IMG/VR virus record: IMGVR_UViG_3300009285_001483
Location: 1 to 38,069 of that record
Reading direction: 5' to 3' (one strand)
Origin: a virus
Length of the DNA: 38,069 bases
Shown here one piece after another: positions 1,377 through 38,050 of the stretch. A model generated the notes under the pieces. That model was not told the DNA's origin and did not search any database. It was given only the letters and a program-made list of their open reading frames with translations. Each line of letters opens with the position of its first letter. Within the stretch, counting starts at the first letter, position 1. A program made the translations under genes and the position numbers.

Positions 1377-1637
1377 CTAGCCCAAACCTGTCAAGAACTT
1401 TTTTCTTTTATTTCCTTCCAAGACGACAACTTGCATTTGTTCTTTTACAAGTCTTATAATTTCGTCCAAGTCCGAATTAGCTTCAGCCGATAAATTATCC
1501 CTATTCAGACCGCATAAGAGCAACAACTCCTTTTTATGAAATTTATACTGATCCCGTAACCATTCGAGTTTTTCTTCTTCAAAACTTATTATAGAACGCT
1601 TCCTTTTTCTTTCTAGCCCAAAACGGGTAGTTATCAT
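1377..1637 (-). CDS. Small charged helical protein, unknown function
   Basis: This 86-aa frame is rich in K, R and E, with a helical centre (EEEKLEWLRDQYKFHKKELLLLC) and no known motif. Its first 59 bases overlap the end of the upstream helicase gene in another frame, longer than the other overlaps in this operon. No in-frame alternative start lies just after the overlap, and the Shine-Dalgarno is weak (GGAA about 12 nt upstream). It fills what would otherwise be a 235-base gap in a tightly packed operon, which is the main reason for calling it. Confidence 0.5.
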   Translation of the reverse strand: MITTRFGLERKRKRSIISFEEEKLEWLRDQYKFHKKELLLLCGLNRDNLSAEANSDLDEIIRLVKEQMQVVVLEGNKRKKFLTGLG

Positions 1638-2634
1638 CCTGAATCATTTCCGGTTCGCCTTGAGGATTAACCCAATACAAATCGTAATTTTCGGCGTATT
1701 CTTTCGTTTTGTTATCAAAATCAATCAAGGCGCATAAGGTTTGAGGTATTCCAGCCCTGCTCTTTGCGTAACGTATGAAAGTCGGGTAAACCATCGTATG
1801 ATAATCGTATTTTGAATAACACGGTGTAAGAAGGATTGTTGTTGATGAAATTTTGGCTATATTTGAAGTCCCGTGCAAATCTTCTATGTCGGGTATTCCA
1901 CGATCCCTTGTCTTTTTTCTTAAATGTGAAATCAAGGCTACTGGAGTAGATAGTTCTTCGGTGTATCTTTTTATCTCTCGCATAATCCTTGTGGTGTGTA
2001 TATTTTCATTGTCATTTGAAACATTATCAAAATAATGAAGGTGGTCTATCACTATCAAGTCAAACTCTGATCTATATTCTTTAACCCCAAAAGGATTGGC
2101 TTCGCACGGCTCTTGAACATAAACGCTTCTTATATTCATTTCCAACCCTTTCATTATCCCGTCAATATCGTTCATGTTTTCCTTCTCAAACACAAAAAGT
2201 CTATTGCTTAATTTTTCGTTTATGTATGCTTCGGCCTGATTTTCGAGATCGTTTACTATCGGATCTTCTATTTTTCCCAAAACGTAATTTGGGTAACTCA
2301 TGTCCATAGGATGTCCGTTTAACCAAAATTTGTTTCGATAGTAATTCTGACTTATATGGTTAAATTTTAACCTACGCCAAACCTCGTCCTTGTCTCCTTC
2401 AAGAGATATTAGGGCCACCTTTTTGCCGTTGGCCGAATTTCTAAAAGCTAACTGATTGGCTAGTTCTGATTTTCCTATTCCAGAATCCGCCCCTATAACC
2501 ACAAGCTCTGACCGCATGAGCCCTCCTAAAGCGTCATCAAGCGGTTTTATGAAGAATTTACAATGATTCTCTTTTTTAAGTGATTCTCGCCTTATTCTTT
2601 CCCGTTGCATCCCTTCAAAAGCATGAATAAACAT
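1579..2634 (-). CDS. DnaB/gp4-type helicase-like ATPase without N-terminal domain
   Basis: The 351-aa protein consists of a RecA-fold core of superfamily 4 helicases. Walker A is G48-ADSGIGKS-56 and Walker B is LIVID (193-197). The SHLRK motif (about 236-240) and the following PDIEDLHGTSNI (about 248-259) match the conserved region of DnaB/Twinkle/T7 gp4-type helicases that couples nucleotide state to DNA. No primase or DnaB N-terminal helical domain is present. The ATG overlaps the TGA of the preceding DnaB-like gene by one base (TGATG), and AAGG lies 7 nt upstream, so translation is probably coupled. It could be a second helicase, a helicase partner or loader, or a recombination ATPase; the fold is clear but the role is not. 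Confidence 0.8.
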   Translation of the reverse strand: MFIHAFEGMQRERIRRESLKKENHCKFFIKPLDDALGGLMRSELVVIGADSGIGKSELANQLAFRNSANGKKVALISLEGDKDEVWRRLKFNHISQNYYRNKFWLNGHPMDMSYPNYVLGKIEDPIVNDLENQAEAYINEKLSNRLFVFEKENMNDIDGIMKGLEMNIRSVYVQEPCEANPFGVKEYRSEFDLIVIDHLHYFDNVSNDNENIHTTRIMREIKRYTEELSTPVALISHLRKKTRDRGIPDIEDLHGTSNIAKISSTTILLTPCYSKYDYHTMVYPTFIRYAKSRAGIPQTLCALIDFDNKTKEYAENYDLYWVNPQGEPEMIQDDNYPFWARKKKEAFYNKF

Positions 2635-4256
2635 CAGTAAACCTTTATCTTTTCTGGTTTTGCGCTTTCAGCCATAAACTCAGCCCATTTTTTATTTCCC
2701 AAAGTTTCAAGTGTCCAGCTATAACCCTTTTCTTTTGCGTCTTTATTTAACCAATCAATGCCTTTTTTTATAAGTCCAATATCTTGTGTTGTTTGAAGTA
2801 ATTTTTTGCCTGCCGACATAAATCTCGGCCATTCTCCGGCAGACACATTTTCTTTTAAAAACCCTTTTGTTGTTAGGTAGTGCCCCACAAGTTCTTTTAT
2901 CTCCGCGTTGAAGTTTGCTTGCGGTTTGCTTGGAGTTTGCTTGCGATTTGCTTCTTTCTCTTCCTCTTCGTTCTTCTTTATATTACTCTTACTCTTTATC
3001 TGTGTAACGGATTCGTTACGGACTTCACCATTTTCCGTTACGATGTCTAAAAAGTTGTGTAACATTTGTATTGTTAAGGACATTTGACGCTTTTTTATAT
3101 CAAAACCTTTTTGGGAGTGGCGAGACTTAACAAGACGTAACCGTGTTTCATATTTTATTGCGTTCAAAACACTTTGGTCTTTTCCGTTTATTTCTTTTTC
3201 GTACAGATACAGCCCAATATCTGCGGAGTTTGCTATTTCTTTCGAGCTTGCTATGTTTTCGATTTTGATTGAGCCGGATTTTGACGAGGCTTTGTCAACT
3301 TGTGCAGGTGTAATGATTGGTTTATTGAGATTAAGAGCACCACGTTTCAGTTTGAGAACCATTTGGCGGAGACGTTCTGTTTCGTTTTCTTTTCCTTTTG
3401 GGTCGGCAAGAAGTTGTAAATAATCCACCATGATGATGTCCGGATTGTAGTTTATTGCTTCGCTTAACACGTCTTCGGACGTGATCGAACCGGAGGAAAT
3501 GATTGTGAGATTGAGCGCGGAAAGTTCAGTAACAGTTTTTCCCAAAAAATCTTTTTGAACTGCTCTTTCCGTGATTTCTTGAACACTAAAATTTCCATAA
3601 ATTGGAACAAGCCTGTCTATCAGTTCGTTCACTCCCATTTCAAGCGAGAAAAATAGGATTGACTTTCCAGCTTTTGTCATGGACACCGCCATGTTGATAA
3701 GTAAGTTGGTTTTTCCCACATTGGTGTCTGCGACAATGACAGCTAATTCGGACCCGCGAAAACCGCCAAGCACGCGATCTAACGCAGGAAATCCTGTCTT
3801 TGCAACATATTCAACAGGCTTGTCATACGCTTCGAGCCATGAGTGAAACATGGTGTTTGCGTGGTGTACTTCGTATTTCTTTTGTGATGTATCGGAATGT
3901 AATAGTTGCTCTTTGAGTTCGATGAGAACGCCGAGCTTATTTTTTGGTTCTGCTTCTGAAAAAAGAGCAAAATACCGTGAAAACAATTTATCAAATTGCG
4001 CCAATCGGTATTTGTCTTCCGCCTCTTCTTTGTATTCTTGAAATTCCGCTTTAGTGAGAAGGTTTGTTGTCGCAGCTATTTCGATATTTATTGGTGAGTA
4101 AAAAGTGCCTTCGGCAAGTCGGTCAAAGTTAATTGGCTTGTTTTCAGCAAAGCGTTTTCGTAGTGTTGTGTAAACAATACGATCTTGTTCGGATAAGACG
4201 TTGGGGTTGATTGTTTCTTTCGGGTTGTTGATGATGTAGGCTAGTAGGAGGTTCAT
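2634..4256 (-). CDS. Replicative DnaB-like helicase with C-terminal extension
   Basis: The 540-aa protein has a short N-terminal helical region (about 1-120), a RecA-type helicase core (about 150-405) and an extra C-terminal part. Walker A is ADTNVGKT (176-183), with alanine where glycine is usual; Walker B is IIMVD (about 274-278), continuing as DYLQLL, the hallmark of DnaB. A basic VKSRH segment (376-380) is in the usual arginine-finger region. Residues about 410-455 form a charged, low-complexity linker (many K, E, N, Q), and about 455-540 look like a separate helical domain, possibly for contacting the initiator or DNA. In phages this enzyme unwinds the fork ahead of the polymerase. It lies just downstream of the replisome organizer, as expected for an initiator-helicase pair. 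Confidence 0.88.
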   Translation of the reverse strand: MNLLLAYIINNPKETINPNVLSEQDRIVYTTLRKRFAENKPINFDRLAEGTFYSPINIEIAATTNLLTKAEFQEYKEEAEDKYRLAQFDKLFSRYFALFSEAEPKNKLGVLIELKEQLLHSDTSQKKYEVHHANTMFHSWLEAYDKPVEYVAKTGFPALDRVLGGFRGSELAVIVADTNVGKTNLLINMAVSMTKAGKSILFFSLEMGVNELIDRLVPIYGNFSVQEITERAVQKDFLGKTVTELSALNLTIISSGSITSEDVLSEAINYNPDIIMVDYLQLLADPKGKENETERLRQMVLKLKRGALNLNKPIITPAQVDKASSKSGSIKIENIASSKEIANSADIGLYLYEKEINGKDQSVLNAIKYETRLRLVKSRHSQKGFDIKKRQMSLTIQMLHNFLDIVTENGEVRNESVTQIKSKSNIKKNEEEEKEANRKQTPSKPQANFNAEIKELVGHYLTTKGFLKENVSAGEWPRFMSAGKKLLQTTQDIGLIKKGIDWLNKDAKEKGYSWTLETLGNKKWAEFMAESAKPEKIKVY

Positions 4257-25138: not shown

Positions 25139-25252
25139 ATGCCATCACTCATTTTCAAGAAAAAAAACAAACCAAAAGCAATGCTAAGTAAAAAGAAAAA
25201 ATTAAAAATGAAGAAAAAATATCAGCCTAAAAATGTAAATAACATGGTATGA
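25139..25252 (+). CDS. 37-aa lysine-rich protein
   Basis: ATG 25139 begins MPSLIFKKKNKPKAMLSKKK, then LKMKKKYQPKN; nearly half of the residues are K. It ends in an ATGA overlap with the endolysin gene, which supports translation. It resembles the 34-aa basic protein at 8800-8904. It may bind nucleic acid or membrane; the role is unknown. Confidence 0.55.
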   Translation: MPSLIFKKKNKPKAMLSKKKKLKMKKKYQPKNVNNMV

Positions 25253-25944
25253 ACATTCGCTGCCCCCTTCAAAAATTCTATCTTTGGAATGGGAAAATCG
25301 CCATTATCAATCAGCTTTTCGCAGAAAACCCGAATAAGTATTCTTATGGTCCGGAAGGGCACACAGGGATTGATTTCAAGACGATAGGATACTGGAAATA
25401 CAAGAGGCACTTCAATAATTGGAAGCAAACACCAAGAACCATAAAACAAGAAGAGGGTCGTATTCCGACTGTTGCAGCGCACGACGGGACACTATCAGCG
25501 ATTCTCTATAACGATAGAAAAGGCCTTGGTTGGGGCATGAAGGTGACAAGTGACATAATGATAGAGGACGGCCTCGAAACGCAGTACAACACGTTATATT
25601 GGCATATAGAGACGCCGTGGCAATCCCTCAAAGCATTTACGGGTGTTTGGAACCTCATTTTGAGAAAAACAAAAGTCAAAAAAGGATCAATTATTGCCAT
25701 TTGCGGGAACAACGGAAAATCCACCGGCCCACATCTTCATTTTGAATTGCGTCGGAGACGCAAGATAAACGGAGCATGGACTGAGTGGGTCAAACTTGAT
25801 CCGATTCAATACTTTGACGATAACGAAGTCGTGTATCAGCGGACTGGTGGTATTGGTAAACAAAACAAATCTTTTTATCAAGGAAAAGAAATTACAGAAG
25901 AACAAAAAAATACAATTCTTAATTCTTTACCAAAAGTTATATGA
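25249..25944 (+). CDS. M23-family (LytM/lysostaphin-like) endopeptidase, probable endolysin
   Basis: The 231-aa protein has the M23 zinc motifs: H38 and D42 in EGHTGIDF, H119 in YWHIE, and H162/H164 in GPHLHFEL (about 160-167). These enzymes cut peptide cross-bridges of peptidoglycan. Position directly before the holin supports an endolysin, although M23 domains also occur in virion-bound lysins. No signal peptide is visible, so it would need the holin for release. The C-terminal 60 residues are an unclassified extension. Confidence 0.85.
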   Translation: MNIRCPLQKFYLWNGKIAIINQLFAENPNKYSYGPEGHTGIDFKTIGYWKYKRHFNNWKQTPRTIKQEEGRIPTVAAHDGTLSAILYNDRKGLGWGMKVTSDIMIEDGLETQYNTLYWHIETPWQSLKAFTGVWNLILRKTKVKKGSIIAICGNNGKSTGPHLHFELRRRRKINGAWTEWVKLDPIQYFDDNEVVYQRTGGIGKQNKSFYQGKEITEEQKNTILNSLPKVI

Positions 25945-27816: not shown

Positions 27817-29250
27817 ATGGCCCAATACATTTTTAATGATGTGTCTGCTGGCGTCATACAATCTATAAAATGGAATCTTGTACCACCAAACTCGGTATCT
27901 CATGCCGTGAATGTTATTTTTGATGATGTCTACGGTGAAGCAGTCGTTAGAAAAGGACTGACGATTAAAGGCAGCCAGCTTGTTGCTGAAGATAATACGA
28001 TTAACGGGCTATTTTACTTTAAAGACACGGCTGGAAGCGCACAGAAGCTCATCGCTGCGGTGAATGAGCCTGGCGATGGTTCGCAATCACTTTTGTACTT
28101 TGATGGTGCGGCGTGGCAGACAGGAAAAACAGGACTCACTTCAAGTCTGAAAACACGCTTTGAGACATTTTTAGATGAGGTGGTCATGGTCAACGGCACC
28201 AATACTCCACTGGCAAGTTCGAATGGTCAAACGTGGGCTGCTAGCACCGCGCTGGCAACGAGTAGTATGCCTGTTGGAAAGTTTATACGGGTATACAAAG
28301 ATCAGGTATGCGTTGCTGGGGTTTCGAGTGAACCAGACGCGGTATATATCTCCTCTGTGCCAAACACCGCAGGAACAGCTATTTCGTGGTCTACAGGGAA
28401 TAGGAAAATACGGATCAATCCTGAGGATGGATCAAATATCACTGGCCTTGGCGAGGTATCAACACTTCTCATTGTCTTCAAAGAAGACGGCATGTATCGG
28501 TGGAACAACAGCGCGACTGACGCTGACCAAATTATCAATGTTGGGTGCTCATCGCAAGAAAGTATCGTCAATGTGGGCGGGGGACTTTTGTCATTTTTCA
28601 ATCAACATGGGGTGTGGATTACTACCGGAGAACAGCCAATTTTAATATCAAAACGTGTCCAGAAGTGGATTGATGGTATGTCTGCCTCGTATTACACAAA
28701 TGTTGCCTCGTATGGGGACGGAGAACATCTTTTTGTTTCAATTGGTGACTGCACTGTGGATGGTGCGTCTTACAACAACGTGGTGCTTCGGTATACAGTC
28801 TCAACGAAAGAATGGACAGCATATTCATATCCGTATGAGTTCCGAGCGTTTTCACGTTTTTTGAATGGAAACGAAACGCAAATTGTTGGTGGTGATACCA
28901 CAGCACGGGTACTCCAGCTTGAATCAACATCACTTACTGATAATGGCACAGCGATAGGATTCCAGCTTGAATCACACGATATTGATTTTGGGAGTCGAGG
29001 GTTGGTCAAAACAATTCAAGAAAGAATCATGGCCTACGGGATTAACCCTGCGTCTGCGATTGTACAAGTGAAAGTGGAGTTTGGTGATTGGGTGACTCTT
29101 GGAACAATGAACCAGCAAATCGAAAACTTTATGATCCGTGAATTGCGTGGTCGGTTTTTTCGTTTTCGTATTGTTGGAACATCAAATACAGCCCGGTTCC
29201 GGTTTCAAGGTCTTGAATTGCCCAATGTTTCGCCACTGGACTATGCCTAA
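27817..29250 (+). CDS. Tail nozzle/hub-like protein (beta-propeller type)
   Basis: The 477-aa protein opens with FNDVSAGVIQSIKWNLVPPN and continues with repeated strands such as LLYFDGAAWQTG, VYISSVPNTAGTA, GGGLLSFFNQHGVWITTG and EWTAYSYPYEFRAFSR. Four-stranded blocks with WTA and GVW motifs are typical of the propeller of podovirus nozzle proteins (P22 gp10 / T7 gp12-like). It would close or line the tail tip. It overlaps the next gene by 8 bases. Confidence 0.55.
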   Translation: MAQYIFNDVSAGVIQSIKWNLVPPNSVSHAVNVIFDDVYGEAVVRKGLTIKGSQLVAEDNTINGLFYFKDTAGSAQKLIAAVNEPGDGSQSLLYFDGAAWQTGKTGLTSSLKTRFETFLDEVVMVNGTNTPLASSNGQTWAASTALATSSMPVGKFIRVYKDQVCVAGVSSEPDAVYISSVPNTAGTAISWSTGNRKIRINPEDGSNITGLGEVSTLLIVFKEDGMYRWNNSATDADQIINVGCSSQESIVNVGGGLLSFFNQHGVWITTGEQPILISKRVQKWIDGMSASYYTNVASYGDGEHLFVSIGDCTVDGASYNNVVLRYTVSTKEWTAYSYPYEFRAFSRFLNGNETQIVGGDTTARVLQLESTSLTDNGTAIGFQLESHDIDFGSRGLVKTIQERIMAYGINPASAIVQVKVEFGDWVTLGTMNQQIENFMIRELRGRFFRFRIVGTSNTARFRFQGLELPNVSPLDYA

Positions 29251-32200
29251 CAATGAATACACAATTTTTGATCCTCTGATAGGGTTGAACGCATGGCTAC
29301 AGAAAACACAGCCACAGCCTTTGGATACTCTTTCTAATCTTGGGACAACACCGAGTGGATCAAGTGATCCATATAATTCAAGCTCGACTCTCTCAAACCC
29401 TCTCAGTCAAGGGTTGCCAACAGGGGTGATATTGTCCGGTGAAATTGGTCAGCTCATTGGCCACGGAAAGAAAACTTTTACCGACACCACAAATGGCTGG
29501 CTTCAAGGAGTGGATACGGACGGTGTGTATAAGTGGTTGATTGGTGGCTCCTCGTATTCCATTGATTGGAGCGTGACGACAGAAGGGGTGCTTACAATAA
29601 ACGGCGTTCTTGTTTCCGGTTCAATTATTACCGGCGAAATTCATATTCCCGACGAAGACACAACCGCAAACAGTTTTCATGTTAATACCACAGGAAACAC
29701 ATGGTGGGGAACAACAGAAAGCAGTTTTAATTCAGACAATACCAATGCGACCGCTTATGTACTAAGCACAGGAGAAGCACGGTTTGCAGATATAACAATT
29801 ACAGGAACGTCTGATGTATCACTTGGCACAGGTTCTTCAATCCTCAAGGCAAATAGTACGGATGGAATATGGCTGGGGAATGGGGCTTTTGCCTCGGCTC
29901 TTTTTTCTGTCTCTCTGGCGGGCGCTATAAAATCCACAAGTGGGGTTATTGGTGGCTGGACACTTTCTGCAACTCAATTTTCATCCGCCTCAGCGTTTAT
30001 TGACTCATCTGTCCCTTCAATAGGTCTGGGATCGGTTACTGATTATTTCACTGGTATTGGGTTTTGGGTCGGTCTTTCTTCCGCGGCATATAAACTCCAT
30101 ATCGGTGATCCTGATAATGATTATCTGAAATGGGATGGAGCGAACCTTGAGGTAACAGGCACGATTATTGCAACCACCGCGACGATCTCATCGACGACTA
30201 CGGATACGTTTACGATCAATAGTGATCTCACTGATTCAAATGTTGATCTTGTTTTTGGGCGCACAACTGGGGGGAATGCGACGATGCGGTGGAATGGGAC
30301 AAAAGTAACCTTGGACAAATTATTTGAAGTTCCTATTTCCACTGCGGGGGGCTCTATTCGCTCAACTCGTACTGTATCGTCATCAAATGTTGGAGGCTTC
30401 CTCTTGGCAGGGTATAACGCATCATCTGCCGTGACTGACTATGCACTGATTCATGGAGTTGTGGAGGTAAATACAGCAGGAGCAGAATATGGAGCATTCC
30501 GTATTGATACGATGACGAATGGGGCTCTTACGGCCAAGGTCTGGATTGAGGGGACTGGCGACGTTGGGATAGGGACAACCAACCCAATATATAAACTCGA
30601 TGTTGCTGGTCGACTGCGATCTTTGGATTCTACGAATGGTGGGGGAATTTGGCTTGGCAAGTCTGGAGACAAATCATTTCTTGGAAGAAGTTCAACTGAT
30701 ACGTATACCGGTATTTGGGATGGAGATAACTGGGCAATGATTATCACAGACACCACAGGCTTAATCGGGGTGAATAATCTCTCACCGACCGCACGCATGG
30801 ATATTATTGATACTAGTGAGCCATTACGCCTTGGCTATGACGTTTTAAACTATGTTTCTTTTACCGTCTCCAGTGGTGGCAACCTTACCGTCGCACCAAC
30901 AGGGGATTTTATCTTCAACCCGACAGGGAACGATATTTTGCCAACCACAAATTACGACCTCAATTTAGGTTCTTTAAGTAAAAAATATCTTACACTCCAT
31001 GCGGCCGAATTGTGGGTTGAAACATTGGTAGCACAAAATACGATCGCGACAATCGGTGGGCGTATTCTTGTTGGCCCAACAACGACATTAACGAGAGACC
31101 TAACAGACGTGGCGACAACAATTTATGTCAAACACAATGAGATGGCTTCGGGGGACAGAGCGTATATGGAAGCTGACGGAAAGGTGGAATTTTTTGCCAT
31201 TACAAGTGCGGCCACTCTTGAAGCAGAGGGGGACTATTCCTATACTGTTACACGCAATCTAGACAGTTCAGGAGCGAATCTTTGGTATGCTGGTGACGCA
31301 ATGTTTAACACTGGAACTACAGGAGATGGATTTATCGATCTCTATTCCATAAACGGAGTAAAAGCAGCGAGCGAAGCAGGGCCAACGATTGTCGGCAATG
31401 TTCGCAATTCTGCGACATATAATGATTGGACATCTCATTGGGCAATAGGGAATTTGAATGGGCTATATGGGTATGGAGTGACAACGTATGGTGTGGCCAT
31501 GGGGGAATATGCGGCCTCGAAAGCACACATCACGATTGATTCTACCAATGGTTTTCGTATCTTTACTGGTACAGGTACGGTTGTTGGTCAATGGAATGCC
31601 ACAGGTTCGATTACTGTTGGAAATACATCAACTGAACATGTAGCAATTTCTTCGACTGCAGTACAGATAAAGGATGGCTCGACTATTTACACTGATCTCA
31701 CTGCAGGAGTTCTTTCGTTAGGGGACACTTCAAATGAACACACGCTCATCAATACCTCTGGAGTTGCATTGAAAGATGGATCGAATGTGTACGCGCTCTT
31801 TGCGGCAACCACAACAATCGGACTTACGGCTTCTGAGCATGTTAGCATCAGTAGTACGGCAGTACAGATTAAGGATGGTTCAACGGTCTACACTGATTTA
31901 ACCGCAGGAGTTTTGTCTTTAGGAGATACATCAAACGAACATGTACTGGTGAATACAACAGGGGTATCTCTGAAAGATTCTACCAATGTTTATGGAGTAT
32001 TCGCGGCAACAACTACCATAGGACTAACTGCGTCCGAGCATGTCAGTATTTCTTCAACTGCTGTCCAAATTAAGGATGGGTCGACAGTCTATACCGACTT
32101 GACCGCGGGTGTATTAACTCTGGGATTGGTGAGTGGTGGTGAATATGTAACGATTGATGGTACAAACGGAATTAAAATGTATGGTGGCGCAACACTTAAT

Positions 32201-34069
32201 GTTGATCTCACCAATGCGGGGGTACTTACTCTCGGAGAGACAGCAAACTCGAAAGCTCGCACTCAGATCAGCGCGGGCGCGATTAGTCTCATTTCTCGTA
32301 GCGCAGGAGCTGTTGATACTACCGTTTTTAACGTTACAACTGCTGGTGTTGTTACCGTAGGAGATACTGCGGTAGAACATCTGAGTGTTAGCAGTACAGC
32401 CGTTCAAATCAAAGACGGTGCAACAGTCTATACTGATCTTACCGCTGGTGCTCTTTCACTTGGAGATACTTCAAATGAACACGTTCTTGTAAATACCTCT
32501 GGAGTTGCATTGAAAGATGGATCAAATATCTACGGTCTTTTTGCTGCAACCACAACAATCGGGCTTACCGCTTCAGAACATGTGAGTATTTCATCGACTG
32601 CGGTTCAAATCAAGGATGGTTCAAGCGTCTATACCGACCTCACCGCAGGGGTCTTGACTCTTGGACTTACCTCAGGAGGAGAATACACCACTATTGACGG
32701 AACAAATGGAATCAAAATGTATGGCGGAGCTGTAGAAACTATCTCGATAACAAATGCTGGTATTGTTACTGTCGGAGAAGTAGGGGCATCAAAGTCAAAT
32801 ATCCAGATTTCTAGCAATCAAATTAACTTACGGACGAATACCACAAATAAAATAACCTTGGATACCAGCGGGAACATCAATATCGTCGGGTCTTTGTTTG
32901 TTGGAACATCAGGGAACATCCAGAGTGGTCAGACCGCGTATAACACAGGCACAGGATATTTTCTTGAATACAATGGTGGGACACCCAGATTCAGTATCGG
33001 GGACAGTACAACGACAAATAGTTTAACATGGGACGGCTCTTCTCTTTTAGTCAATGGTTCTCCTGTATCAAATGAAACAATTTTTGGAGATGGAAGCGAT
33101 GGAGACCATACAACAGCTGGTAACGAAACATTGACTGCTGATGTTTATTATTCCAATTTAACGATAGCGACTGGACACACAATCTCTACGGCAGGGTTTC
33201 GTATATTTGTTTCTGGAACGCTTACCTTCCAAGGAACGGGAAAACTTTCTGCCGTGGGCGGGGCGGGGGGAAATGGGGGGAATGGAAATTCGTCTGCTCA
33301 AGGAGGTACTGCTGGCGTAGCGGGAGCCATTGCACACAGCACGGGGACTCTTCCTGCGGGAGAAGATGGAAAAATCGGGGGCGTTGGTGGGGGAACTGGG
33401 TCAGGCGGGGCATGTGAACTTGGCGGTAATGGAACTGCTGGAGATGCTGCAACAAAAGCCCTATCTGGAGCAGGTTCAGCGGGCGGTGAAGCTGGAAACG
33501 GAAGCAATGGTTGTACATCTACTGGTTCTGCTGGGAGTGCGGGGTCTGTTTCTGGGACTGTGTTTAATAAAATTCGGAATATTACGTCTGCATTTCAACT
33601 TCTTGATAATTTTCCTTCTGTTACCGTATTTTCCATTGCTGCGGGTTCTGGAAGTGGCGAAGGTGGGGCAAGTGGTCGAAACGGAGACAATACAACGTCA
33701 GGTGGAGGCGGAGGCGGAGGCGGGTCAGGAGCAACAGGTGGATTTGTATGGTTTGCTGCTCGTAATGTTGTAACCGTGGATGGTAATACCTATGCAACGG
33801 CTGCTGGTGGCGTTGGGGGAAACGGTGGGAATGGCGGACAAGGAGCAATAGGCGGCGGAAGCACAGGTGATGGTGGTGGCGGAGGTGGAGGAGCAGGTGG
33901 ACGCGGGGGAGTTATCGTGCAAATCTATTCTTCCTTGAGCGGCACTGGAATTGCGTCCGTTGCTGGGGGAATTGGCGGCACAGGGGGGACTGCAGGAGGT
34001 GGGGGAGGAACCGGTGGGTCGAACGGAACGAATGGGGGGACAGGATTAAATGTTGCGTTAGTTGTTTGA
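29243..34069 (+). CDS. 1608-aa tail fibre/adhesin with glycine-rich tip
   Basis: ATG 29243 is preferred; the open frame extends upstream only inside the nozzle gene. An N-terminal 150 residues include IITGEIHIPDEDTTANSFHV, a fibre-type pattern. Residues about 440-470 contain VGIGTTNPIYKLDVAG, found in many phage tail fibres. Residues about 786-1180 hold imperfect repeats of about 24 residues (EHVSISSTAVQIKDGSTVYT and similar). From about 1335 to the end the protein is mostly glycine with N, T, A and S (GGAGGNGGNG, GGGGGGGGSGATGG), resembling polyglycine-type adhesin tips that bind the host surface. It is the main receptor-binding candidate. Confidence 0.75.
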   Translation: MPNNEYTIFDPLIGLNAWLQKTQPQPLDTLSNLGTTPSGSSDPYNSSSTLSNPLSQGLPTGVILSGEIGQLIGHGKKTFTDTTNGWLQGVDTDGVYKWLIGGSSYSIDWSVTTEGVLTINGVLVSGSIITGEIHIPDEDTTANSFHVNTTGNTWWGTTESSFNSDNTNATAYVLSTGEARFADITITGTSDVSLGTGSSILKANSTDGIWLGNGAFASALFSVSLAGAIKSTSGVIGGWTLSATQFSSASAFIDSSVPSIGLGSVTDYFTGIGFWVGLSSAAYKLHIGDPDNDYLKWDGANLEVTGTIIATTATISSTTTDTFTINSDLTDSNVDLVFGRTTGGNATMRWNGTKVTLDKLFEVPISTAGGSIRSTRTVSSSNVGGFLLAGYNASSAVTDYALIHGVVEVNTAGAEYGAFRIDTMTNGALTAKVWIEGTGDVGIGTTNPIYKLDVAGRLRSLDSTNGGGIWLGKSGDKSFLGRSSTDTYTGIWDGDNWAMIITDTTGLIGVNNLSPTARMDIIDTSEPLRLGYDVLNYVSFTVSSGGNLTVAPTGDFIFNPTGNDILPTTNYDLNLGSLSKKYLTLHAAELWVETLVAQNTIATIGGRILVGPTTTLTRDLTDVATTIYVKHNEMASGDRAYMEADGKVEFFAITSAATLEAEGDYSYTVTRNLDSSGANLWYAGDAMFNTGTTGDGFIDLYSINGVKAASEAGPTIVGNVRNSATYNDWTSHWAIGNLNGLYGYGVTTYGVAMGEYAASKAHITIDSTNGFRIFTGTGTVVGQWNATGSITVGNTSTEHVAISSTAVQIKDGSTIYTDLTAGVLSLGDTSNEHTLINTSGVALKDGSNVYALFAATTTIGLTASEHVSISSTAVQIKDGSTVYTDLTAGVLSLGDTSNEHVLVNTTGVSLKDSTNVYGVFAATTTIGLTASEHVSISSTAVQIKDGSTVYTDLTAGVLTLGLVSGGEYVTIDGTNGIKMYGGATLNVDLTNAGVLTLGETANSKARTQISAGAISLISRSAGAVDTTVFNVTTAGVVTVGDTAVEHLSVSSTAVQIKDGATVYTDLTAGALSLGDTSNEHVLVNTSGVALKDGSNIYGLFAATTTIGLTASEHVSISSTAVQIKDGSSVYTDLTAGVLTLGLTSGGEYTTIDGTNGIKMYGGAVETISITNAGIVTVGEVGASKSNIQISSNQINLRTNTTNKITLDTSGNINIVGSLFVGTSGNIQSGQTAYNTGTGYFLEYNGGTPRFSIGDSTTTNSLTWDGSSLLVNGSPVSNETIFGDGSDGDHTTAGNETLTADVYYSNLTIATGHTISTAGFRIFVSGTLTFQGTGKLSAVGGAGGNGGNGNSSAQGGTAGVAGAIAHSTGTLPAGEDGKIGGVGGGTGSGGACELGGNGTAGDAATKALSGAGSAGGEAGNGSNGCTSTGSAGSAGSVSGTVFNKIRNITSAFQLLDNFPSVTVFSIAAGSGSGEGGASGRNGDNTTSGGGGGGGGSGATGGFVWFAARNVVTVDGNTYATAAGGVGGNGGNGGQGAIGGGSTGDGGGGGGGAGGRGGVIVQIYSSLSGTGIASVAGGIGGTGGTAGGGGGTGGSNGTNGGTGLNVALVV
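31600..32720 (+). repeat. Tandem protein repeats within the adhesin
   Basis: Five blocks carry a nearly identical EHVSISSTAVQIKDG-type sequence, followed by the VYTDLTAGVLSLG and ATTTIGLTASEH units. DNA copies differ at many third positions, including TCN and AGY serine codons, while the peptides stay nearly the same. Unit length is about 24 residues, grouped in a larger period of about 70. Confidence 0.8.
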
Positions 34070-34393: not shown

Positions 34394-36175
34394 ATGGCCA
34401 AACTACCACCAGGGGACGTGTCCGTTTTTACCAATAACAATGGACAAGTCAAAATTTATAAATTGACCGCGACGAACATAGCCGAAGACAACAAAGGCGC
34501 GTGGGCGGTTGGAGGCAAAGTTGACTTTATTGATCAAGGAAGCTACGAGGCAATGAACGCGAAGTATGGGCTTAACGGGTATCTTGAGGTTCCGCAAGAT
34601 CAAGTTGATTCTTTCCCAAAAGGAGCCGTTGCCACTGATAATGATATTAAAAATGGATTGTACCAAACTTTTGATAATATGGACCCAACTGGGCAAGCGA
34701 ACCAATACCTTGAAAAAAACATAGATTCTATCGTAAAACAGGTAAAACAATCCATGCAAGGAGGCATTGATAATCTAAAAGCGTACGGGAATGTTTGGAA
34801 CCAATATAAAGGTTCCCCTCAATATGTAGAGAGCGGGGCTGATATTTCCCAAAAAGACACCCTATCGGCGGCAGGGATTCCAAAAACTACGTCCGGAGCA
34901 ACAGAACCCATAGACGCAAAAAAATATCTTCTCGAAAAAAACGGAAAATATACTGTTGTCACAAAAAGTTCCATGGGCGGCTTTCTCAAGGCCGGGTACA
35001 AACAAATCCAAGGGGTTTTGGATGATGTGCCTGTGGGGGTTCCGCCGCAAGGTTTATTGGATCAAATTTTAACCGGAGCACAATCTGCGTCGGCATCTCC
35101 CTCAGGGGCAGTACAACTTGATCCTCAATTTAAACCTAATGAAAATCCCTTTACCGGAGAGATCGTTGACCCAGCTCTCGCGAAACAATTCCAAGAAGAT
35201 TATTTAGCGTCTTTGGGGAAAAAATCGCAGCCTCAAGCACAACAACAGCCTGCACAACAGCAGACGCAACAACAAACACAGCAACAACAGCCTGCACAAC
35301 AGCAGACGCAACAACAAACACAGCAGCAAAAGTCTGGTCTTCCGGATGAAATAGCGGTTGGCGCGGCCTTAACAGGGGAAGAATTTGATTTTGAAACATT
35401 CAAAGATTTACCGGAGAAAATAAAAAATTCAAAGGGTTGGGAGGCATTAACAGACGAGCAAAAAGTGCTCGCTTACTTTACATATAAAACACAAACAATT
35501 ACTAATGACGCCGCGAAAATTGACGCGGAGAAAGCGTTGGATGAAGCAATGAAATTGGCCGATCCCTTCTACAAAGAACAGATTAAATTGGCAAAAGAAG
35601 GCATAACCCAAAGTATACAAAGTATTGAATTTTCTTCACAATCAAAGCTGGATCAATACCAAAAAAACATTAAAGATTTAGAGGAAACTTTAGCTTTTCA
35701 AAAAGAAAACCTATCGCTCGAAGAACAACAAGAACTTTCTCAACAGCTCTTACAAAATAAAAAACAACTTTTTGGATTGCAACAAAACATGGCCGAAGCG
35801 GGACTTGCTTTTTCATCTCCTTACCAAGAGGCGGAATCTGATTTGTTAGCTTCACAGCAAGGGTATGCCCAAAGCACAAAACAGCAATTCGCTAAGGCCA
35901 AGAAAGCCGCTGAAATGCAAGTCGGACAAAATGTCGCGGGACTTCAACAGGGAATAAGTCAAACAGAACAAGCAAAACAAATGGCACTAAAAGAACTCGG
36001 TCTTTCGACAGAATCACAAGTAGGCACACAAAACCTTCCTTCCATTCCAGGGTATACTCCACTTGGTGATATTACCGGTTCTCTCGAAGAACAAAAACAA
36101 AGCAAAATCCTTAATTTACAGGAAATTTTGAAACAAAGCAAAACCCTTAATTTACAGGAAAAAATTTTGAAATAA
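34394..36175 (+). CDS. Probable internal (ejection) virion protein A, Gln-rich
   Basis: The 593-aa product starts MAKLPPGDVSVFTNNNGQVK. Around residues 177-215 it carries the module KYLLEKNGKYTVVTKSSMGG...AGYK-x5-VLDDVPVG, also present at the start of the next protein. Residues about 275-312 are a Gln/Thr/Ala linker made by a 42-bp tandem duplication. The rest is helical and rich in Q, K and E, with no enzyme motif. Long, helical, Q-rich proteins at the end of the tail module fit podovirus internal core proteins that form a conduit for DNA entry. The call rests on context. Confidence 0.5.
   Translation: MAKLPPGDVSVFTNNNGQVKIYKLTATNIAEDNKGAWAVGGKVDFIDQGSYEAMNAKYGLNGYLEVPQDQVDSFPKGAVATDNDIKNGLYQTFDNMDPTGQANQYLEKNIDSIVKQVKQSMQGGIDNLKAYGNVWNQYKGSPQYVESGADISQKDTLSAAGIPKTTSGATEPIDAKKYLLEKNGKYTVVTKSSMGGFLKAGYKQIQGVLDDVPVGVPPQGLLDQILTGAQSASASPSGAVQLDPQFKPNENPFTGEIVDPALAKQFQEDYLASLGKKSQPQAQQQPAQQQTQQQTQQQQPAQQQTQQQTQQQKSGLPDEIAVGAALTGEEFDFETFKDLPEKIKNSKGWEALTDEQKVLAYFTYKTQTITNDAAKIDAEKALDEAMKLADPFYKEQIKLAKEGITQSIQSIEFSSQSKLDQYQKNIKDLEETLAFQKENLSLEEQQELSQQLLQNKKQLFGLQQNMAEAGLAFSSPYQEAESDLLASQQGYAQSTKQQFAKAKKAAEMQVGQNVAGLQQGISQTEQAKQMALKELGLSTESQVGTQNLPSIPGYTPLGDITGSLEEQKQSKILNLQEILKQSKTLNLQEKILK
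35246..35329 (+). repeat. 42-bp tandem duplication encoding a Gln-rich linker
   Basis: Copy 1 (35246-35287) and copy 2 (35288-35329) are 42 bp each (14 codons: Q, P, A, T) and differ at one base. It extends the linker without breaking frame. Confidence 0.9.
36095..36169 (+). repeat. Tandem repeat at the end of virion protein A
   Basis: Two units of 36 and 39 bp (36095-36130, 36131-36169) begin AAACAAAGCAAAA and encode QSKILNLQEIL / QSKTLNLQEKIL. A third weaker match (near 36176) crosses the stop codon, so the end of the gene has been extended or shortened by slippage or duplication. Confidence 0.8.
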
Positions 36176-36200
36176 AAACAAAATCCTTTCAATTTCTAGT

Positions 36201-37334
36201 ATGGCTAAAATTCTTGTTGAAAAAAATGGAAAACAAACCGTCGTAACAGAATCTTCCGTCGGAGGATTTTTAAACGCCGGATACAAAAAGGTTGCCGATG
36301 TTGGGGATGATATACAAGTCGGGCCAGGAGGAGCCGCTCAATTTGGTACGCTCCCACAAAAAACAACACCATTGACCAATACCATGAGTGGTACGTCTCT
36401 AAAGCAACAACTCCCCGAGGCTGTTCCTCAGCCTGGCTCTATGGCTGCGTTTAAAGGTGTGTTGAAAGAAATATCAAATGTTGCATTCCAGCAAGGCCCG
36501 AGTCCGACAGACATTATCAAACAATACGCTGCGGGAGGTTTGAAATTGACAACCCCAGAAGCTATCGGCGGCGCGATTTCAATGGATACAGGCTCTCGTG
36601 CTGGTACTATTGCTGACATGTTTGAGGATACGTTGAATTTTGCGTTAGAGCAACAAAAAAAAGTGAAAGAACAATTTGACCTGTCTTTGAAACAATTAGA
36701 CCTTGCGTCCGTGAGTGGTGTCGCGCTCACATCTCAGACACTTAATAATATCGACACTGCCCTCGGTATTCCTGGAGTCGCACAAGCATATTTAACAACA
36801 AAACAAAACGTTCTTTCCGCGCAAACAGAACAACAACAAATGTCCGCAGCCATGGATACATTAAAATTCTTAAACGCAATGCCCACTGGTTTTAAGATGA
36901 AAATAGGGGATACGGAATATACTGGTTTGGGAGGAGATATAAACAAAGTCTACAAAGAAGTTGACGGAAATGGAAAGGTAACATTTTTAGAAGTTGGCCC
37001 TGGAGCGGACGGACAAGGGCTTGAAGTTTTAAGTTCTGCCACTGGGGGACCTGTGGCAAAAGGATTTAAAGGTTCAAGTAGTCCAAAAAGCACACCACAA
37101 CCAACCACTAAATTTGACAAATTTGTCCAAGAAAAACAAGAAGAAGTAGGAATATCGTTCAATCTTGCGGATCCAAAAGTGAAACAAGGTTTGGAAGCCA
37201 TGATGTTGTTATCGCCGACTGATAAAAAGAAAATGTATGGGAATAATCTTGATCCGAATGATCCGATTGATGTGTTAAAATATATACAAGAATATAACAA
37301 AATAGACTCAGGTCTAAATTTTGATGATCTTTAA
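36201..37334 (+). CDS. Probable internal virion protein B (377 aa)
   Basis: The protein opens with MAKILVEKNGKQTVVTESSV, GGFLNAGYKKVADVGDDIQVG, the same module seen near residue 180 of the preceding protein. It is otherwise polar and helical, with amphipathic stretches (about 110-220) but no clear membrane or enzyme segment. The C-terminal 60 residues are rich in K and D. It may form part of the ejection apparatus with its neighbours. Confidence 0.5.
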   Translation: MAKILVEKNGKQTVVTESSVGGFLNAGYKKVADVGDDIQVGPGGAAQFGTLPQKTTPLTNTMSGTSLKQQLPEAVPQPGSMAAFKGVLKEISNVAFQQGPSPTDIIKQYAAGGLKLTTPEAIGGAISMDTGSRAGTIADMFEDTLNFALEQQKKVKEQFDLSLKQLDLASVSGVALTSQTLNNIDTALGIPGVAQAYLTTKQNVLSAQTEQQQMSAAMDTLKFLNAMPTGFKMKIGDTEYTGLGGDINKVYKEVDGNGKVTFLEVGPGADGQGLEVLSSATGGPVAKGFKGSSSPKSTPQPTTKFDKFVQEKQEEVGISFNLADPKVKQGLEAMMLLSPTDKKKMYGNNLDPNDPIDVLKYIQEYNKIDSGLNFDDL

Positions 37335-37357: not shown

Positions 37358-38050
37358 ATGGGTATTTTTTCCAATTATGTATCACAATTAGTCGCTAAAA
37401 AACTTTCTTCTAAAAAACCAAAGACTGAAGAAAAAATAGAATCAGCTCCACAAAAAGTTATGACTTTTCAGGTTGGAGAAGGTCTTGATATAGAACAAAA
37501 ACAAAAAGCGCAATCTGTCATACAAAGCCAAATACAACAGCAGAAAAAAACAGAAGCTCCCCCAATAGAAAAATCAAAGAGTATCTTTTCTTCATTGGTA
37601 GAAAAATTGCCGGAGGCGGAAGTACCCATTAAAAAAGCAATCACACAAGCATTTCTTCCTGCGGGGACTAAAAAACTTGCGGATGTTATTCCTTTCAAAG
37701 AACCAACGTATAAAGGCGGTATTTTTGGGGCTTACGTAAAAGCTGCTGAAAAAGTGAAAGGTTTTGTTGAATCAGGCCAAGAAGAAGCAGCAAAAAAAAT
37801 GATCGCAAAAGGGCAAGCTTCAACTATGGAACAAGCAAAACAGCAGCTTATTTTGCAAGACGCGGCGATTGGAGCTATAGGATCAGTAGAAAAAATCGGT
37901 GGAAAAGTTGCGAAGGAAGTAGGAAAAAAAATAGTTAAAAATATAAAGAGTGAAGGTGGAAAAATACGGGGTTTTGTTCAGAGTGCTAAAGAAAAAATAC
38001 CAGAAGCAACAAAAAGACAGAAGAATACCATCTACATATCCTTTGTGTAG
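37358..38050 (+). CDS. Probable internal virion protein C (230 aa, end doubtful)
   Basis: The protein starts MGIFSNYVSQLVAKKLSSKK, with many K, E and Q and an amphipathic C-terminal half (IGAIGSVEKIGGKVAKEVGKKI). Its size and context fit a small internal protein. The last 14 or so residues (RQKNTIYISFV) differ in character from the repetitive K-rich text before, and the stop is only 19 bases from the window edge, so the true end may lie elsewhere. Confidence 0.5.
   Translation: MGIFSNYVSQLVAKKLSSKKPKTEEKIESAPQKVMTFQVGEGLDIEQKQKAQSVIQSQIQQQKKTEAPPIEKSKSIFSSLVEKLPEAEVPIKKAITQAFLPAGTKKLADVIPFKEPTYKGGIFGAYVKAAEKVKGFVESGQEEAAKKMIAKGQASTMEQAKQQLILQDAAIGAIGSVEKIGGKVAKEVGKKIVKNIKSEGGKIRGFVQSAKEKIPEATKRQKNTIYISFV

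Follow-up and report, generated by a model that had tools for sequence, protein, structure and literature searches.

In one account (PMC8954989), the ejection proteins of podophages of the T7 gp14/gp15/gp16 type are described as the products of a small operon of adjacent, size-variable proteins, between whose members wall-hydrolase domains swap, and as proteins that diverge fast and whose homologues are often paired by size and position. In the Kuravirus SU10, gp20-24 exit the virion once the genome is released, and a transglycosylase activity is described for gp20 (PMC9509320). The virus record analysed here (IMGVR_UViG_3300009285_001483, 38,069 bases; hereafter the window, meaning the whole stretch) carries a locus of comparable layout, in which two adjacent proteins, P1 and P2, share a module marked by the motif EKNGK.

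The window encodes a terminase, a capsid protein and a portal matching the Pfam family SU10_portal marginally above the cut-off, and one of its proteins matches the PHROG head closure Hc3. Near its 3' end the gene order is a 1643-aa fibre-like protein, a 108-aa ORF, P1 (593 aa, 34394..36175), P2 (377 aa, 36201..37334) and P3 (230 aa, 37358..38050), the last three all on the plus strand. P1 consists of an N-terminal arm (residues 1-337) and a C-terminal domain (residues 338-589, 35405..36160, plus strand) that is conserved, as defined by a match to a protein of record G003 and by a profile, in 16 other records. Between the module and this domain lies a Q-rich low-complexity stretch at about residues 278-313 (35225..35332, plus strand, limits approximate), which is read from its composition as a probable linker. 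P2 carries the module at its N-terminus and a conserved core deeper in (residues 69-150, 36405..36650, plus strand), delimited by an iterated profile and a G003 match. P3 was assigned to the cassette by position; its stop lies 19 bases short of the contig end, whereas the ORFs at the same place in relatives have 494-2387 aa (some limited by the stretch fetched), and the short P3 possibly reflects a truncation or a frameshift at the contig end. The best match of P3 to the third ORFs of relatives had an E of 0.006 (BLASTP only). Elsewhere in the window, an ORF at 25249-25944 among the tail genes encodes an M23 peptidase (Pfam, 3e-9), a separate wall-cutting enzyme; two adjoining ORFs at 1579-4256 both match the DnaB_C helicase; and the fibre-like protein (29138-34069) contains recurring stretches, e.g., EHVSISSTAVQIKDGSTVYTDLTAGVLSLGD.

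Like the T7 gp14-16 type (PMC8954989), the locus and its relatives show a small run of adjacent, size-variable proteins, some relatives having wall-directed domains in P2. P1, P2 and a third ORF, taken by position, are present in 17/17 records, the third ORF being long in relatives and only 230 aa at the contig end in the window. Unlike that type, P1 and P2 showed no homology to named ejection proteins apart from a weak match of the P1 of record G025 to PHROG 4287 'DNA ejection protein' (E 0.004), and a search of PHROGs returned no homology between the window proteins and characterised ejection proteins. Moreover, a non-catalytic module on two members of the cassette is not mentioned in the accessible part of PMC8954989. 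The likeness to SU10 lies in the portal and in the placement of P1-P3 after the tail genes, as for gp20-24, whereas the P1 and P2 profiles matched 0/12 SU10 proteins (hmmsearch, hhalign).

Alignment by BLASTP revealed that P1 residues 177-215 (34922..35038, plus strand) and P2 residues 3-41 (36207..36323, plus strand) are identical at 26/39 and similar at 32/39 positions without a gap, with an E of 3e-12 for the pair. The initial annotation had described a module of about 38 residues common to a 593-aa and a 377-aa protein; both ORFs are present as it gave them and the module is confirmed at 39 residues, and the interval it assigned holds both copies except that copy 2 runs 3 bases past its end. 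With low complexity masked, under which the alignment stops at 29 columns, the P1 and P2 arms aligned with a Smith-Waterman score of 111, compared with 53 for the best of 500 shuffles and 52 for the best of 272 cross-virus arm pairs. The same codon is used at 16/26 identical residues, and where both copies have the same G, A, V, T or P, 7/12 fourfold sites differ, these counts being small. Since fourfold sites differ while the amino acids stay identical, a recent origin of the copies is unlikely and their protein sequence has apparently been kept, and they thus look old and constrained.

When folded alone (45 residues, two-copy input), the module was predicted by AlphaFold2 to adopt a beta-beta-alpha-beta arrangement with a mean pLDDT of 88.3, with strands at residues 3-8 and 11-16, a helix at 17-25 and a further strand at 29-34. 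The model of the whole P2 was poor (mean pLDDT 52): the hairpin of the module was drawn, the helix and third strand were missing, residues 15-78 had a pLDDT below 50, and no secondary structure was assigned from 16 to 79, so that this model is too poor to settle the fold. As modelled, the module resembles a small tethered domain, the tether being presumably flexible. The initial annotation had named a lack of structural similarity, together with the lack of a third occurrence, as what would count against its reading, and no similarity of significance was found. Foldseek returned nothing at E <0.001 for the lone-module model against PDB and BFVD, among 50 PDB rows and the best 50 of 329 viral matches with an E of at most 10. 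With VIA-align, 15/73 chains reached a Z of at least 2 (best 3.9), including FbiA, T7 Gp2, phycobilisome linker chains and the P22 portal, and these matches are read as probably reflecting a common small arrangement.

The LysM domain, a small portable module, is one familiar comparison. Its fold is beta-alpha-alpha-beta; by order of elements, the lone EKNGK model is beta-beta-alpha-beta with a single helix. The EKNGK module lacks a Pfam LysM match and the GDTL-type signature of LysM. The likeness extends to its counterpart in G025, which is LysM-like by pattern, not at significance.

A profile built from both copies and run unfiltered over 91 loci plus the window (596,482 bases) placed only the two known copies above the inclusion threshold; the recovery of both by the unfiltered profile, together with a look-alike search in the window, was counted as the positive control for the empty module-profile searches. 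The module profile gave no match in 5 portal relatives, just one partial match (E 0.09, 14 positions) in 32 related records, and nothing at E up to 0.01 when run against 286 genomes from the phylum to which record G034 belongs. Back-translated patterns for P1, P2 and the module revealed no close relatives in viral_contigs, and tblastn against 50,697 phage records gave no match for P1, P2, the module, the portal, the G003 P1 start, G025 P1 or the G025 module. Neither copy matched a Pfam family at E up to 10, LysM included, or a PHROG significantly, and against PDB sequences the module pair drew a single row, a designed TIM barrel (E 0.1, without a significant stretch).

Several candidate relatives of the module were considered and rejected. 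A stretch of the fibre protein at 30371-30439, VSSSNVGGFLLAGYN, looks like the central part of the module (E 0.003), with p values of 0.002 and 0.0006 against the two copies; as a third copy it is unconvincing, given about 0.04 after correction (33 proteins x 2 queries) and the missing hairpin. P3 residues 79-110 (p 0.002 and 0.09; about 0.1 under the same correction for 33 proteins x 2 queries) were likewise unconvincing, their score falling inside the cross-virus range. The P1 start of G003, a look-alike by spacing, received an hhalign probability of 0.2%, and the best of 30 arms compared with the module by hhalign was the G023 P2, at 9%. By eye, the starts of L010 P1, L078 P2 and L085 P2 show a hairpin with a glycine turn and, after it, a helix-like stretch; these are perhaps small modules of the same build, to which hhalign gave no support. 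The profile searches and the fibre and P3 look-alikes together yielded no convincing third copy, the other lack that the initial annotation had said would count against its reading.

The two proteins themselves belong to a conserved pair. Portal-based searches revealed 40 viral loci, some near-identical, and two genome contigs, of which 28 portal loci and both contigs, together with two records found via the Hc3-like protein, made up 32 records searched whole; the portal loci L024, L029, L030, L038, L040, L043, L054 and L055 lay outside these whole-record profile searches. A profile of the P1 C-terminal domain, built from two seeds including G003, matched 16/32 records, of which 14 are virus records and 2 are genome contigs; many of the records without a match are fragments. 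The domain shares 38% identity with a 374-aa G003 protein over 251 aa (E 2e-48). The P2 core was found by an iterated profile in 17/17 records with the P1 domain, window included, with an E of 7e-24 for the window protein, the profile having been grown from these same 17 proteins, picked by position with one G024 ORF skipped; the window core is 40% identical over 80 aa to a 648-aa G003 protein. In G024 (L087) an extra ORF (2309-2974) lies between P1 and P2, a candidate HNH-type homing endonuclease by eye. L004 and L005 encode proteins identical to those of the window, being fragments that include neither P1 nor P2. Run over 379 genomes from the G034 phylum, the P1 profile had two matches, G034 itself and one other (E 3e-5 over 54 positions). 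In addition, the portal relatives L057 and L058 lie on MAG contigs, one titled Candidatus Aenigmatarchaeota and the other a bacterium, placements that possibly indicate a host or misbinning.

The N-terminal arms of P1 and P2 differ among the 17 records. To compare them, P1 and P2 arms were aligned by Smith-Waterman with low complexity masked, within each of the 17 records and across 272 cross-virus pairs. Within-virus scores were 201 in G025, 111 in the window, 47 in G030, 40 in G022 and at most 32 in the remaining 13, against a cross-virus maximum of 52, and strong P1-P2 sharing is thus seen in 2/17 records only. The test could show no sharing where the P1 arm was fully masked (G033) or the P2 arm was very short (15, 16 and 36 residues in G033, G034 and G026, respectively). 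In G025 (L077, 761-1864 and 1872-2834), P1 and P2 both start with another shared module, 37/46 identical, which has no similarity to the EKNGK module by hhalign; it is N-terminal in P1 there, whereas the EKNGK module is internal in the window P1. As G025 shares a different module in this manner, the missing third copy and the missing structural match of the EKNGK module were not taken as refuting a function. Other instances of sharing were set aside: G022 (score 40 against 37 for the best of 500 shuffles, yet below the cross-virus maximum of 52) is a hint only, G030 (47, p 0.05) and G028 (24, p 0.05) are not convincing, and a G007 module spotted by eye failed the test (29, p 0.07).

Wall-directed sequences were identified in the P2 proteins of some relatives. 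In G018 (L081), P2 residues 7-70 match the PHROGs 'L-alanyl-D-glutamate peptidase' (1.4e-12) and 'endolysin' (8e-6), and also a PHROG family named ferredoxin (3e-10). This P2 start is a repeat matching 164 phage records (87 Listeria, 74 Bacillus and 3 other) at up to 55% identity; among the best 25 of these matches, 16 bear one of the names lysin, endolysin, amidase, L-alanyl-D-glutamate peptidase or cell wall-binding, another 8 are hypothetical proteins, and 1 comes from an unannotated record. The repeat occupies about residues 256-309 of a 364-aa endolysin in SIOphi, and about residues 31-87, near the start, of a 202-aa protein annotated as cell wall-binding in Bobb; from these annotations, it probably binds walls. 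The G018 P2 thus carries at its N-terminus a repeat known from endolysins of Bacillus and Listeria phages, showing what the slot can hold, and this repeat is unrelated in sequence to the EKNGK module (window P1 arm against G018 P2 arm, score 28, within the cross-virus range; hhalign 0.2%). The P2 start of G027 is weakly like the G018 repeat (7e-5 for the pair). Furthermore, PHROG 873 'endolysin', assigned to the category head and packaging, is matched beyond the core by the P2 proteins of G003 (1.7e-4) and G007 (4.2e-6). The G030 P2 start, searched as a fragment, gave a sub-threshold match to Pfam SLT (E 0.003); at full length the protein returned no Pfam family (E 0.1) and matched PHROG 24990 (unknown function) at 2e-33. 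Pfam matches to HEPN_Swt1 (7e-4) and DUF3597 (0.001) in single P2 members were set aside, and no further wall-related family was found in the 17 P2 proteins at E 0.01 (Pfam, PHROGs). In P1, wall-related families were absent from PHROGs matches for all 17 proteins and from Pfam matches for the 6/17 searched, and no wall-directed domain was found in window P1-P3 (Pfam, PHROGs). The shared G025 module has a LysM-like pattern, and its best PDB sequence match was the LysM of MltD, in register at a non-significant E of 0.5; Pfam reported no family for it, and its LysM-like identity may be regarded as a lead, not a result.

The position and layout of the locus, the wall-directed P2 domains of some relatives and the weak PHROG match of G025 P1 suggest that P1-P3 are probable ejection proteins, and the presence of the module on both P1 and P2 suggests one common target, which, by analogy with the other slot occupants, is most likely the cell wall. 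The reading that we tentatively favour, while holding it to be somewhat short of probable, is that P1 and P2 are internal virion proteins that are ejected and that the module engages the wall as a mini-domain occupying a swappable slot. P1, P2 and P3 would together be the ejection cassette of a short-tailed phage, with the EKNGK module as a self-folding mini-domain carried by the P1 and P2 arms, in a slot that related phages fill otherwise, in part with wall-directed modules. P1 and P2 would exit the head with or before the DNA, both modules would grip the same cell-wall polymer, and the grip would hold the conduit, and in relatives also a wall-cutting domain, to the wall during opening. Virion location, ejection, wall binding, a single target of both copies and flexibility of the arms are all things that we infer from the comparisons above. 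What speaks against this reading is that the sequence and structure searches linked no wall-binding family to the EKNGK module itself, that strong sharing was seen in 2/17 records only, that the poor whole-P2 model shows just the hairpin of the module, that most P2 and nearly all P1 proteins gave no wall-related match, that the place of the shared module in P1 differs between the window and G025, and that P1 and P2 showed no homology to the SU10 proteins. Docking inside the virion or pairing of P1 with P2 would give the same sequence pattern.

Docking is the strongest of the alternatives, a possible reading to which we give rather less credence: the module may be a packaging tag whose two copies bind one site inside the procapsid, on the portal, the scaffold or P3, and thereby ensure joint loading of P1 and P2. 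A common target of this kind would simply account for two constrained copies, and the same module does occur on two neighbouring, probably co-packaged proteins; however, it was undetected in 16 relatives that have the P1 domain and were all found via the same portal family, and the P2 arm of G018 carries a repeat of endolysins, enzymes that act on walls. The initial annotation had suggested an interaction or targeting module for the virion interior. Its first part was fair, the module being real, predicted to fold alone and located on two ejection-like proteins, whereas the wall-directed P2 domains of some relatives point to the host wall rather than the interior, with docking inside the virion staying as a rival. 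That the P1 and P2 copies instead pair with each other or with themselves, holding an ejection complex together, is distinctly unlikely: 26/39 identity is enough for the same surface and G025 also has matched modules, but most of the 17 records have no detectable shared module, indicating that such pairing is not generally needed. Least probable of all is a short stretch copied from one gene to its neighbour with no special function, for although neighbouring genes recombine easily and the module was detected in 1/17 records only, 26/39 amino acids have been kept though 7/12 fourfold sites differ, and G025 shares a different module in the same manner.

Beyond the wall-engaging reading of the single module, a more general and speculative proposal, which we regard as unlikely on present evidence, is that in this podovirus lineage the wall-binding modules of neighbouring ejection proteins match each other, are exchanged pairwise and let both proteins grip the same wall polymer of the current host. 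Literature searches restricted to LysM or peptidoglycan-binding in combination with internal virion or ejection proteins found no paper, and a module common to two ejection proteins was not mentioned in the titles and abstract openings among the matches listed. The module itself is a real mini-domain, apparently constrained and apparently new, within machinery of a known kind.

The conserved P1-P2 pair with its exchangeable N-terminal slot provides a handle for finding ejection proteins in phages that have not been cultured. Should wall-binding modules occupy the slot, its content would hint at the wall of the host and would show that DNA delivery can involve gripping the wall as well as cutting it. 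Were the proposal of matched, paired modules true, EKNGK would represent a new mini-domain for wall binding, and adaptation to the host wall could be read from the P1/P2 slot.
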